Below, one piece after another: positions 53,265 to 56,138 of a DNA stretch of 64,000 nt (positions are counted from its first letter, which is position 1; each line of letters opens with the position of its first letter). The position numbers and the translations under genes are program-made. This DNA comes from Emticicia oligotrophica DSM 17448 (GTDB lineage: Bacteria > Bacteroidota > Bacteroidia > Cytophagales > Spirosomataceae). The DNA lies in assembly GCF_000263195.1 (NCBI RefSeq), contig NC_018748.1, forward strand, positions 2,852,001 to 2,916,000. The letters run 5' to 3'. The notes beneath the pieces were generated by a model. It was given only the letters and a program-made list of their open reading frames with translations. It ran no database searches and was not told the origin of the DNA.

Positions 53265-53281
53265 ATTGATGATTACATTTG
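53265..53281 (+). promoter_or_regulatory. Putative promoter of the TPP-riboswitch transcript
   Basis: TACATTTG at 53274-53281 fits TAnnTTTG. Transcription would start near 53288, immediately before the aptamer. The -33 element is weak. Confidence 0.45.
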
Positions 53282-53292
53282 TAATATATTTC

Positions 53293-53366
53293 ATGCACGG
53301 GGTGCTGTAAAAAGCTGAGATGATACCCGAGAACCTGAACTGGTTAATACCAGCGTAGGAATGCAG
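53293..53366 (+). ncRNA. TPP (THI-box) riboswitch aptamer
   Basis: The conserved THI-box segments appear in order: GGGGTGCT, GCTGAGA, ATACCC, GAACCTGAACTGGTTAATAC, CAGCGTAGGAA. The P1 stem closes through TGCA at 53294-53297 and TGCA at 53362-53365. This aptamer senses thiamine pyrophosphate. It is on the same strand and about 115 bp ahead of the methyltransferase ATG, with an intrinsic terminator between, so the ligand should shut off the operon. Confidence 0.95.
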
Positions 53367-53427
53367 GAGCCAATAAGATATTGAGAAGAGTAGCCTTAGA
53401 GCTTTATCTAATCTATATACGTTTTGA

Positions 53428-53469
53428 GACCTCATTTCGAGCATTCAGTGCAGAAATGAGGTTTTTTTT
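53428..53469 (+). terminator. Expression-platform terminator of the TPP riboswitch
   Basis: Ten-base arms ACCTCATTTC/GAAATGAGGT with an internal GCA/TGC stem in the loop, followed by eight T. It ends 12 bp before the first ATG of the operon. It makes transcription attenuation the likely mechanism. Confidence 0.88.
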
Positions 53470-53481
53470 ATCAAAACTATT

Positions 53482-54207
53482 ATGGAAGAATTAGAACTAA
53501 GCGAAAAAAGTTTGGTGAAGCCACCACTCCGCAATTGGCAGGGCCGAAAAGAATGGTTTTTTAACCGTGAACACACCGATACCTACGAACTTTGGTACGA
53601 AGGCCGCTACAAACGAGCCGAAGTTTGGCAAAAGAAAATTATGGGTAGATTCGTGAAGTCTGACCCAAGAATTAAAACACTACTCGAATTTGGCTGCGGA
53701 ACTGGCCGTTTTACCCGTTGGTGGAAAGAAATTGGCATTGATGCTTCGGGTGGTGATATCTCTCCTTTTATGTTGGGGCAGGCCGTTCATCTTTTTGGTG
53801 GAAATCTTGTCTGGGCTGATTCTCATTTTATGCCTTTCAAAGACCACACTTTTGATGCACTTGCGTTTATTACCACCTTTGAATATTACCGTGACCCCGT
53901 GCAGGTAATTCGTGAAGCTGCAAGAGTGGGCAAATATGGAATTGCATTCGGAATGATGAATCGTAATTCTCCAAAAGTGGTTCGACGAAGAGTGCAAGAA
54001 GCCTTTGGGAAAAATCCGTTCTACGTAACTGCTACTTTCTACACGCCTGAAATGCTTACCCGAAAAATCCATGAAGCACTTGTAGGGCGTAGCTACACCA
54101 TTGAGTGGCAAGCAACTGGCTTACCCGAATGGTTTCCTGTGCAAGAATGGCACGTACCTTATGGCGATTTTTTTGGTTTGTTTGTACGATTCAATGATGT
54201 GGATTAA
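53482..54207 (+). CDS. Class I SAM-dependent methyltransferase in TPP-riboswitch operon
   Basis: The 241-residue protein carries motif I LLEFGCGTGRFTRW (67-80), an acidic residue after strand 2 (GGDISPFM, D92) and FKDHTFDALAFITTFEYYRDP as motifs II-III, like Methyltransf_11/UbiE proteins. An N-terminal extension of about 60 residues (YELWYEGRYKRAEVWQKKIM) may cover the active site. The substrate cannot be told from sequence. It is the first gene after the riboswitch, and its stop overlaps the next ATG (TAATG). The Trm112-like gene three places downstream could encode its activator. Confidence 0.88.
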   Translation: MEELELSEKSLVKPPLRNWQGRKEWFFNREHTDTYELWYEGRYKRAEVWQKKIMGRFVKSDPRIKTLLEFGCGTGRFTRWWKEIGIDASGGDISPFMLGQAVHLFGGNLVWADSHFMPFKDHTFDALAFITTFEYYRDPVQVIREAARVGKYGIAFGMMNRNSPKVVRRRVQEAFGKNPFYVTATFYTPEMLTRKIHEALVGRSYTIEWQATGLPEWFPVQEWHVPYGDFFGLFVRFNDVD

Positions 54208-55259
54208 TGGAAAATATAGGAAAAATCAACGAAGAATACTTTAAAAAAGTTATCTTACCTAATAGTGGCTTTAAGCGTAAAGAAGTTGTTATTGGGCCAA
54301 ATTTTGGTGTCGATGTGGCACTTGTAGAATTGCCAAACAATATGGCCATGGCTCTTACCTCTGACCCACTGAGCTTAATCCCTACTTTGGGTTTGCAGGA
54401 ATCAGCGTGGCTTTCGGTGCATCTGATGGCCAACGACATCGCTACCACCAGTTTTGCTCCAATGTATTTACAAACGGTACTTAACTTACCAACTAGTATC
54501 TCCGATGCTCAGTTTAGAGAATATTGGCAATACATTGATAAGTTTTGTAAGGAAATTGGCGTTGCAATTACGGGCGGACACACCGGCACAATTGAAGGCC
54601 AAAACTCGACCATTTCGGGTGGTGGAACATTGATAACTATTGCTCCGCAAAAACAAATACTTACTTCGAATAACGCTCAAATTGGTGATTCAATCATTAT
54701 GACCAAACAATGTGCGATGTCATCTGTATCTATTTTGGCGATGTCCTTTCCAAAGACTATTCGTCAGAAATTAGGCACTGAAGTAGCACAAAAAGCGGAA
54801 GAATTGTTTTATCATACCTCTGTCTTGAATGAAGCATTGGTTATCAATAAACTTAATCAACAACAGAAAGTGGTGAATGCGATGCATGATGTTACGGAGG
54901 GTGGTGTGTTAGGTGCGGCTTTCGAGATGGCAATCGCAAGTGGTTTAGGTATTGAAATTCAGGCAGATAGGCTCAATATTTCACCAATTGTCAGCTCAGT
55001 TTGCGAAGTTTTTTCATTTGACCCTCGTTATTGTATTGGAGCAGGTTCAATGATTATTTCGGTTAAGCATCAATACGAAGAGTTGGTAATCAATGCTTTA
55101 CATGAAAATAATATCGAGGCCTGTACGATTGGGAGTTTCACAGCATTAGAAGAAGGCCATAGGATGGTTGAAAATGATGAAGTTAAGCCAATGACTTACC
55201 ACGAAACTGACCCTTACTGGGCAGCATTTTTTGAGGCATTCAAACGTGGTTGGAAATGA
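54207..55259 (+). CDS. AIR synthase/HypE/ThiL-like ATP-binding protein
   Basis: The 350-residue protein has the PurM-like two-domain fold. FGVDVALVELPN, LTSDPLSLIP, LMANDIATTSF and AITGGHTGTIEG are N-domain metal- and ATP-site blocks. MHDVTEGGVLGAAFEMAIASGLGIEI and FDPRYCIGAGSMIISV are C-domain blocks. The superfamily includes thiamine-monophosphate kinase (ThiL), HypE, SelD and PurM. It lacks the C-terminal Cys of HypE and is not a recognisable standard ThiL. Under a TPP riboswitch, phosphorylation of a thiamine precursor is a reasonable hypothesis. Its start overlaps the methyltransferase stop and its stop overlaps the next start by 4 bp. Confidence 0.8.
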   Translation: MENIGKINEEYFKKVILPNSGFKRKEVVIGPNFGVDVALVELPNNMAMALTSDPLSLIPTLGLQESAWLSVHLMANDIATTSFAPMYLQTVLNLPTSISDAQFREYWQYIDKFCKEIGVAITGGHTGTIEGQNSTISGGGTLITIAPQKQILTSNNAQIGDSIIMTKQCAMSSVSILAMSFPKTIRQKLGTEVAQKAEELFYHTSVLNEALVINKLNQQQKVVNAMHDVTEGGVLGAAFEMAIASGLGIEIQADRLNISPIVSSVCEVFSFDPRYCIGAGSMIISVKHQYEELVINALHENNIEACTIGSFTALEEGHRMVENDEVKPMTYHETDPYWAAFFEAFKRGWK

Positions 55260-55867
55260 AAAAAAGTATTTATCTCATCGCCGACCCAGCCATGGAACAA
55301 AGTGTTTTGCTCAATAAAATTGAGATGGCTCTGAAAGGTGGCCTTTTTGCCGTGCAATTATGGAATAATTGGCAAAATGTAGCTAATAAAATCGAAATCA
55401 TTGAAACTATCCACCAACTCACAAAGTTGGCAGGTGTGCCTTTGATTCTTAATGAAGGTCAAGATTGCCTTGATTTGACTTGTTTTGATGGAATTCATCT
55501 TGATTTTCCCAACGAAATGATACAAGAATACCGGCAAAAACGACCAGATTTAATTTGGGGACTCACTTGTTCAAACGAAACCGAAAAACTCATTTGGGCT
55601 GAGCAAAATTCGTTGGATTATATTTCGTATTGCTCAATATTTCCATCGAAAACTAGTAATAGTTGCGAGCTTGTTAGTTTTGATACTATTGACAAAACTC
55701 GCGAGTTTTTTAGTCGAAAAGTATTTTTAGCGGGGGGAATTAATCAAAATACGATTCCGAATCTCAAAGATTTACAATTCGATGGTATTGCCTTGGTATC
55801 GGCCATTATGGACGCCGAAAATCCAACCGAAGTAGTATTGAATTATTCAGAAATCTTAAACCATTAA
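55256..55867 (+). CDS. ThiE-like (thiamine phosphate synthase fold) protein with altered active site
   Basis: I start at the ATG at 55256 (203 residues), which overlaps the previous stop as ATGA. The TIM-barrel order of ThiE is visible: YLIADP, GGLFAVQLW, LILNEGQD, FDGIHLDFP, SIFPSKTS, FLAGGIN. Several family residues are changed. The VQLReK pyrophosphate-binding pair is replaced by W36 and N38, the usual ND by N66-E67, HxGQ by H81-L-D, and the PTxTK lysine by S134. The protein may bind a related ligand or have lost activity. TenI-type members, which aromatise the thiazole rather than couple it, are an alternative. Confidence 0.78.
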   Translation: MKKSIYLIADPAMEQSVLLNKIEMALKGGLFAVQLWNNWQNVANKIEIIETIHQLTKLAGVPLILNEGQDCLDLTCFDGIHLDFPNEMIQEYRQKRPDLIWGLTCSNETEKLIWAEQNSLDYISYCSIFPSKTSNSCELVSFDTIDKTREFFSRKVFLAGGINQNTIPNLKDLQFDGIALVSAIMDAENPTEVVLNYSEILNH

Positions 55868-55871
55868 AGTC

Positions 55872-56138
55872 ATGACCAAAAGTTTTTTTGATAAATTATG
55901 TTGCCCATTCGATAAATCTGAACTTTCAATTCAGGTTTTCACCGAAAAAGAAAATAACATCATTCATGAAGGGCTTATCACTTGTCCAACTTGTAAGCGT
56001 TTGTATCCAATCATTCATGGAGTGCCGATTATGATACCCGATGCTTACCGAGAGGCACAACTCGAAAAACCATTTTTTAAAAAATGGAATGATAAGCTAA
56101 GTCTGGAAGCAAAAGCCAGCTTGATATTGGAAGAATAA
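55872..56138 (+). CDS. Trm112-like zinc-binding protein
   Basis: The 88-residue protein has four Cys (C10, C11 near the start and C38, C41 in CPTCKRLYPI), a typical Trm112/UPF0434 zinc knuckle, followed by HGVPIMIPDAYREAQ. Trm112 is a small co-activator that binds and stabilises SAM methyltransferases acting on tRNA, rRNA or release factor. It begins 4 bp after the ThiE-like gene and closes the operon, so the methyltransferase at the head of the operon is its most likely partner. It is somewhat longer than most bacterial Trm112 proteins (about 60 residues). Confidence 0.87.
   Translation: MTKSFFDKLCCPFDKSELSIQVFTEKENNIIHEGLITCPTCKRLYPIIHGVPIMIPDAYREAQLEKPFFKKWNDKLSLEAKASLILEE

Follow-up and report, generated by a model that had tools for sequence, protein, structure and literature searches.

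Several forms of thiamine operon controlled by thiamine pyrophosphate (TPP) riboswitches are known. The Bacteroides operons thiSEGCHF-tenI and OMthi-pnuT-tnr3 serve de novo synthesis and uptake, as described in PMC5613172. The bacimethrin operon of paenibacilli, as presented in PMC5627462, is under putative TPP control and combines ThiE and an S-adenosylmethionine (SAM)-dependent methyltransferase with a thymidylate synthase, a glycosyltransferase, and thiaminase I; neither an AIR-synthase-fold (AIRS-fold) nor a Trm112 protein is among the conserved genes given there. A third operon, thiM-thiE-thiD-tenA, is located behind a 73.9-bit TPP aptamer in a sister Emticicia genome (G001, locus L383). 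This short unit makes thiamine monophosphate (TMP) from its moieties with a hydroxymethylpyrimidine (HMP) kinase, a thiazole kinase, and a canonical ThiE with a QLREK site. Here, we describe a four-gene operon from Emticicia oligotrophica DSM 17448, contained in a stretch of 64,000 nucleotides (contig NC_018748.1, positions 2,852,001 to 2,916,000) that we refer to as the window. The operon, or cluster, encodes a methyltransferase, an AIRS-fold enzyme, a ThiE-like barrel, and a Trm112-like protein. Its link to thiamine is well supported. Judging from sequence, we consider the chances about even that it forms TMP by salvage of scavenged material, replacing ThiD, ThiM, and ThiE.

Similarly to the G001 operon, the cluster is short, has a TPP riboswitch, and would make TMP from moieties. 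The enzymes differ, as the G001 operon encodes two kinases and a canonical ThiE and has no methyltransferase, AIRS-fold, or Trm112 protein. The only relation between the four cluster proteins and those of the Bacteroides operons is the TMP-TENI family, whereas the TonB receptor and PnuT recur in cluster genomes (PMC5613172). The thymidylate synthase, glycosyltransferase, and thiaminase I of the bacimethrin operon were not found beside the cluster. The word methyltransferase is missing from the main text of PMC5613172 and from that of the TPP-regulon survey PMC3766115, and PMC5955953 concerns a fungus. The original prediction held the pairing of a methyltransferase with Trm112 to be new under TPP control. 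A methyltransferase beside thiM, thiD, and thiE is already in print for the paenibacilli, whereas no Trm112 or AIRS-fold protein is among the conserved genes that this source lists (PMC5627462). We found no description of the operon in the open full-text literature (PMC), a search that has the subscription literature outside its range.

The cluster is located on the forward strand of the window. Its TPP aptamer (THI element, 53288-53378) covers the full Rfam model RF00059 (positions 1-105) with a cmscan score of 65.7 bits, against a gathering score of 54.3. The leader folds into a long hairpin followed by eight T residues (53430-53469), an intrinsic terminator and likely expression platform, with the stem CCTCATTT/AAATGAGG at 53430-53461. 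A T-rich stretch after a hairpin, between aptamer and gene, was recognized by eye in 7 of 12 folded relatives. The first gene (53482-54207) encodes a class I SAM-dependent methyltransferase of 241 residues (Pfam Methyltransf_11/25/23; Methyltransf_11 E 1.6e-14). It is followed by genes for a 350-residue AIRS-fold ATP enzyme of the HypE/SelD/ThiL superfamily (54207-55259; Pfam AIRS/AIRS_C), a 203-residue ThiE-like TIM barrel (55256-55867; Pfam TMP-TENI, E 4.7e-26), and an 88-residue Trm112-like protein (55872-56138; Pfam Trm112p, E 4e-7). The genes are joined by a one-base overlap (TAATG), a four-base overlap (ATGA), and a 4-bp gap. All four Pfam assignments are above cut-off, and the aptamer, the terminator, the junctions, and the four kinds of protein agree with what had been predicted. 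None of the four proteins reaches the curated cut-offs of the NCBIfam families named below.

A scan of GTDB contigs with the methyltransferase recovered 112 relatives, the best 80 of which provide the locus counts given here. Of the 80 loci, 77 have all four genes arranged as in the window, and the remaining three (L139, L158, L159) end at contig ends. An upstream same-strand aptamer is present in 79 loci, L159 being the exception, according to a custom model that is not independent, as 11 of its 12 training aptamers are sites within the searched loci. The Rfam model provides an independent check, and matches the cluster site in all 42 cluster genomes examined below, in 41 of them above the gathering score. 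The families with the cluster, among these best 80 relatives, include Leadbetterellaceae, Spirosomataceae, Hymenobacteraceae, Sphingobacteriaceae, Chitinophagaceae, Crocinitomicaceae, Prolixibacteraceae, and Balneolaceae. The cluster is present in 3 of the 11 Emticicia genomes searched, and Emticicia sp. CRIBPO (L089) is an additional carrier. Close methyltransferase relatives (E <= 1e-120) occur in 4 of 395 genomes of a class-level sample, the window's genome among them. Eight plasmid records contain weak methyltransferase matches, none of which covers 80% of the protein at one place. Across genera, no additional gene has a fixed place beside the four in the 80 loci. The cross-genus families considered as extra operon genes, the largest of which occurs at 26 of the 80 loci and reads as ATPases, lie at scattered distances and on both strands. 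In the methyltransferase tree, Emticicia is joined by Runella limosa and R. defluvii (100/96), and Sunxiuqinia by five other Runella (97/87). This split suggests that the unit was transferred between lineages, or lost and regained.

ThiC yields HMP, ThiG yields thiazole phosphate, and ThiD yields HMP diphosphate, while TMP is the substrate of ThiL. These genes were sought in 42 distinct cluster genomes, six from earlier searches and 36 reached via 40 of the 80 loci, chosen mostly as isolates on long contigs, with one locus (L125) left out and three duplicates dropped before counting. Eight Emticicia genomes without the cluster formed the comparison set, for 50 genomes in all. ThiC is present in a single cluster genome, that of Sphingobacterium rhinopitheci (G465), which also has the only full-length ThiG (358 bits); both are missing from the eight cluster-free Emticicia. 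ThiG Pfam matches (cut-off 23 bits) occur in 28 of the 50 genomes, but all except that of G465 are partial, score at most 36.1 bits, and by reading appear to be other TIM barrels. No cluster genome has a ThiD above the TIGR00097 cut-off, compared with four of the eight cluster-free Emticicia, and a canonical thiM/thiD/thiE salvage operon was rejected on this ground. Below the cut-off are a 120-bit ThiD-like protein in G465 and a fragment in Pedobacter G444. TPK (TIGR01378) is found in 9 of the 42 cluster genomes and in seven of the eight cluster-free ones. Canonical ThiL exceeds its curated cut-off in all 50 genomes, including the 42 with the cluster, which contradicts the earlier suggestion that the operon replaces ThiL. 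Because ThiC and full-length ThiG are each found in one cluster genome, ThiD above cut-off in none, TPK in nine, and ThiL in 42, most of these genomes must obtain TMP in some way. With ThiC, full-length ThiG, and ThiD mostly missing, TPK often missing, and ThiL always kept, the cluster is most simply read as a supplier of TMP.

In 34 of the 42 cluster genomes, no intact TMP-TENI protein other than the ThiE-like protein of the cluster exceeds the cut-off, and a second full-length one is present in seven. The proposed replacement of ThiE is therefore supported in a limited sense, by these 34 genomes. In Pedobacter G444, a cluster carrier, a ThiE remnant with a stop adjoins the ThiD remnant (C12:712227-712826). 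The window's own genome has canonical ThiL and TPK away from the cluster, and ThiC, canonical ThiE, an above-cut-off ThiD, and full-length ThiG were not found in it. ThiC is rarer in cluster genomes (1 of 42) than in non-cluster relatives (8 of 35; Fisher P 0.009), in a comparison of genomes that are not phylogenetically independent and of sets that were drawn differently.

The methyltransferase domain scores 54.7 bits against a Pfam cut-off of 21.2, and its motif I, EFGCGT, is invariant in 81 sequences. The methyltransferase is the most conserved member of the cluster, with 89 of 241 positions invariant in the same sequences. Its mean pairwise identity is 77%, compared with 55% for the AIRS-fold protein, 52% for the Trm112-like protein, and 44% for the ThiE-like protein (78-81 sequences). 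The methyltransferases of the window and of E. aquatilis are 99% identical, and their canonical ThiL proteins 90%. The conservation of the methyltransferase is best read as purifying selection and not recent transfer, because 66 synonymous codon changes between the two species accompany 2 amino-acid changes.

The Trm112-like protein scores 30.3 bits with PF03966 (cut-off 22) and 56 bits with the NCBIfam equivalog Trm112_arch, short of the 77 bits of that family. It matches PDB chains 6zxw_H and 6f5z_C, which we take to be of archaeal source. Cys11, Cys38, and Cys41 are present in 76 of 78 sequences, and Asp14 in all 78. The two exceptions (L140 4191-4466 and L149 12413-12685) have lost all three cysteines together, and any zinc site would therefore be dispensable in them. 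We consider the protein a putative partner of the methyltransferase, based on the co-occurrence of both genes in 77 of the 80 loci. The pair resembles the Trm112-methyltransferase holoenzymes of archaea and eukaryotes in joining a class I methyltransferase with a Trm112-like protein, here encoded together. Unlike those holoenzymes, whose known partners act in translation, the pair is located in a TPP-controlled operon.

The AIRS-fold protein has an AlphaFold2 model with a predicted local distance difference test score (pLDDT) of 93.0, whose best PDB match is HypE, followed by SelD and ThiL. The three relatives share its fold, and its conserved aspartates 36, 53, 77, and 228 align with the site of ThiL. 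It could not be assigned to any of them. ThiL was rejected on score (69.3 versus 184.15 bits, TIGR01379), on the replacement of the GDD motif by GVD and of GGDT by GGHT, and on the presence of canonical ThiL as a separate gene. HypE was rejected on score (87.9 versus 251.6 bits, TIGR02124) and on the C-terminus, which ends in GWK and does not have the C-terminal cysteine that we take to be a site residue of known HypE. SelD was rejected on two equivalog scores (74.3 versus 291 bits, NF010705; 60.9 versus 125 bits, TIGR00476). The sole other match to the AIRS-fold protein in its own genome at E 0.001 is a HypE-like protein. It belongs to a hydrogenase-maturation-like (hyp-like) gene set, which was identified by eye from the sequences and is located some 100 kb away from the cluster (L029 1737-7863).

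The ThiE-like protein scores 91.7 bits with Pfam TMP-TENI and has the barrel fold. Its AlphaFold2 model (pLDDT 95.1) has ThiE structures as the best PDB matches in Foldseek, with TM-scores of about 0.83 to ThiE and 0.77 to TenI. It is not a canonical ThiE, as it scores 95.6 bits against the 145.1 of the equivalog (TIGR00693) and departs from the diphosphate/Mg site (QxRxK, ND, HxGxxD, TxTK). The Arg position of QxRxK is Trp in 76 of 78 ThiE-like proteins and Tyr in two, its Lys position is Asn or His in 74, the Asp position of HxGxxD is Pro in 61, and the Lys of TxTK has no counterpart in the window's protein. Invariant in all 78 are Gln34 and His81, presumably equivalent to the pyrimidine contacts of ThiE, and Gly160 and Gly161, which with Ser182 (75 of 78) presumably correspond to the thiazole-phosphate pocket. 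The protein thus shares fold and thiazole-phosphate pocket equivalents with ThiE and TenI, but differs from them in the loss of the HMP-diphosphate Arg and Lys residues and in having two invariant cysteines, Cys126 and Cys137.

Without the Arg and Lys residues with which ThiE holds HMP diphosphate, the barrel is likely to depend on a substrate activated by other means. The methyltransferase is the natural candidate for this step because it is the most constrained member. We hypothesize that the methyltransferase and its Trm112-like partner would use SAM to activate one half of the vitamin, most likely the pyrimidine compound, so that a methylated leaving group of the sulfonium or ammonium type stands in for diphosphate. 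The other half, which could be the thiazole, would be phosphorylated or activated by the AIRS-fold enzyme at the expense of ATP. The ThiE-like barrel might then couple the halves without HMP diphosphate, perhaps via one of its two invariant cysteines. The TMP produced under TPP control would be converted to TPP by the separate canonical ThiL. We have much less confidence in this exact chemistry than in the formation of TMP. It is possible, but doubtful, that the cluster represents a second way to assemble vitamin B1, in which the methyltransferase-Trm112 pair installs the leaving group that known routes derive from HMP diphosphate, and a cysteine-bearing ThiE relative forms the C-N bond, with TMP arising from precursors or even de novo.

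In addition to the conserved unit with its aptamer, the gene content of the cluster genomes, and the altered site of the barrel, TMP formation by salvage is favored by the purifying selection on the methyltransferase, the receptor behind a TPP match described below, the motif-less TPK homologues of five cluster genomes, and the ThiE and ThiD remnants of Pedobacter G444. The distribution in the 11 Emticicia genomes, of which three have the cluster, four have canonical ThiE and ThiD, and none has both, points the same way, but this non-overlap is expected by chance (P 0.34) and is not significant. Several observations weigh against salvage. Four of the eight cluster-free Emticicia have canonical ThiE and ThiD and the other four have neither, three of these (G006, G007, G009) with TPK. 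S. rhinopitheci has the cluster in addition to ThiC, ThiD-like, ThiE, and ThiG proteins encoded in one TPP-controlled operon. No terminal branch of the tree is longer than that of its methyltransferase (0.6), which could reflect a relaxed need. The nine cluster genomes with TPK could live on thiamine alone. Another source of TMP, involving for instance ThiM, TenA, ThiN, ThiK, or THI4, is possible, as the genome-wide searches covered ThiC, ThiG, ThiD, ThiL, TPK, and TMP-TENI proteins. The diphosphate/Mg site of the ThiE-like protein is partly kept: Asn66 of the ND motif is present in 66 of 78 sequences, 41 retain an acidic residue (Glu) at the next position, and 77 have gained an aspartate, Asp83. 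The protein may therefore retain some metal or phosphate binding.

The genes that follow TPP matches, defined as an unbroken same-strand run with gaps of at most 300 bases, point to uptake. In 40 of the 42 cluster genomes, a separate TPP match precedes the gene of a TonB-dependent receptor, always from the same family. The window's own genome and Ekhidna lutea bring the count to 42. The match before the receptor is above the gathering score in 22 genomes and below it in 20. In the window's genome, a weak TPP match (42.9 bits, below cut-off) is located upstream of the receptor (L003 4533-4631; C5:2404532-2404630). In E. lutea, the receptor is encoded between the single aptamer and the methyltransferase, and the five genes apparently form one operon (L160 7537-12724). 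The receptor probably carries thiamine, by analogy with the OMthi/PnuT system described for B. thetaiotaomicron (PMC5613172) and from its TPP matches, not from direct sequence comparison.

The presence of this receptor behind a TPP match in all cluster genomes examined speaks for uptake, and against the idea that the four proteins provide a complete de novo route, building the pyrimidine or thiazole ring as well, without ThiC and ThiG and with a ring methyl from the methyltransferase. We regard such a route as unlikely. Two heterocycles are much to expect from four proteins, and the three TPK-bearing Emticicia genomes G006, G007, and G009 have neither operon. The rarity of ThiC and full-length ThiG in the cluster genomes and the extreme constraint on the methyltransferase agree with it, and ordinary salvage needs neither a methyltransferase nor an AIRS-fold enzyme. 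In a study of leaf bacteria (PMC9666465), each of the 21 thiamine prototrophs (100%) possessed ThiC, a result that counts against de novo synthesis if carriers of the cluster were included in the tests. The cluster is found in Pedobacter Leaf41 and Leaf176, neither of which is named in the main text of that paper. We found no growth data for cluster-bearing species.

In 16 of the 42 cluster genomes, TPP matches, all below the gathering score, precede genes for PnuT and an HsaA-like flavin monooxygenase of the Acyl-CoA_dh_2 fold (L329, L336, L339, L341, L342, L348, L352, L354, L357, L361, L364, L365, L369, L372, L374, and L377). A monooxygenase is unexpected within a TPP regulon. Its position after PnuT would fit a role of the cluster in repair, in which modified or damaged thiamine, for example oxidised or ring-altered, is salvaged by swapping one half. 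The ThiE-like protein is consistent with such an exchange reaction, having lost the diphosphate Arg and Lys while keeping the equivalents of both substrate pockets, and with two cysteines invariant. We nevertheless consider repair quite unlikely, since 26 of the 42 genomes have no such monooxygenase at their TPP sites and none of the matches in the remaining 16 reaches the gathering score.

Synthesis of a thiamine antivitamin is very improbable. The paenibacilli operon offers a precedent, with thiM, thiD, thiE, and a methyltransferase among the bacimethrin genes behind a putative TPP riboswitch (PMC5627462). However, its thymidylate synthase, glycosyltransferase, and thiaminase have no counterpart beside the cluster, where no further gene keeps its place, and the vitamin pathway from which an antivitamin would branch is missing in most cluster genomes. 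Persistence across the phylum under strong purifying selection is a better match for a core function. A TPP-controlled operon acting outside thiamine chemistry, with the pair modifying RNA or protein, is just as improbable. In its favor, the substrates of methyltransferases known to pair with Trm112 are tRNA, rRNA, and release factors, and the profile of the cluster's methyltransferase has a match to an 18S rRNA methyltransferase that was solved in one PDB entry with a TRM112-like subunit (6g4w). Against it, two of the four proteins are from superfamilies with thiamine enzymes, the aptamer is kept across the phylum, and E. lutea has a thiamine-type receptor within what appears to be the same operon.

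The idea of an undescribed thiamine-linked route, put forward in the original prediction, stands as far as the operon is concerned, given the high aptamer score, the conservation of the cluster, and a genome in which no full canonical thi set was found. The chemistry of the route is conjectural. Within the known kind of TPP-controlled thiamine operons, the cluster may well use a chemistry that is new. Genomes are often assessed for vitamin B1 status by their thiC, thiE, thiG, and thiL genes. Should the cluster form TMP, these predictions would be mistaken or incomplete for the carriers searched in Pontibacter, Mucilaginibacter, Pedobacter, Runella, and Chitinophagaceae, and genomes scored as thiamine auxotrophs for want of thiC, thiG, and thiE may build TMP from precursors, or even de novo. 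A central pathway of vitamin synthesis would then hold enzyme chemistry that is new, and a methyltransferase-Trm112 pair would have a small-molecule role. The compact four-gene unit lends itself to direct heterologous complementation.

Two further kinds of protein are encoded near the receptors. A TPK homologue is present in five cluster genomes (L347 2103-2750, reverse strand; L351 3781-4371, forward; L367 4212-4844, forward; L373 3759-4319, forward; L375 2751-3311, reverse), and has lost the GDFD, KTDLE, and GRRADH motifs of the Emticicia and Runella copies. It is perhaps a sensor or structural protein. The description of cluster genomes as having no TPK at all was rejected, as nine have TPK and these five others the motif-less homologue. 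In a member of the Catalimonadaceae (G441), two NMT1/THI5-like proteins, one recognized by Pfam and the other by similarity to the first, are encoded behind the receptor of the TPP site (L345 2839-4811). They are possibly HMP synthases or precursor-binding proteins.

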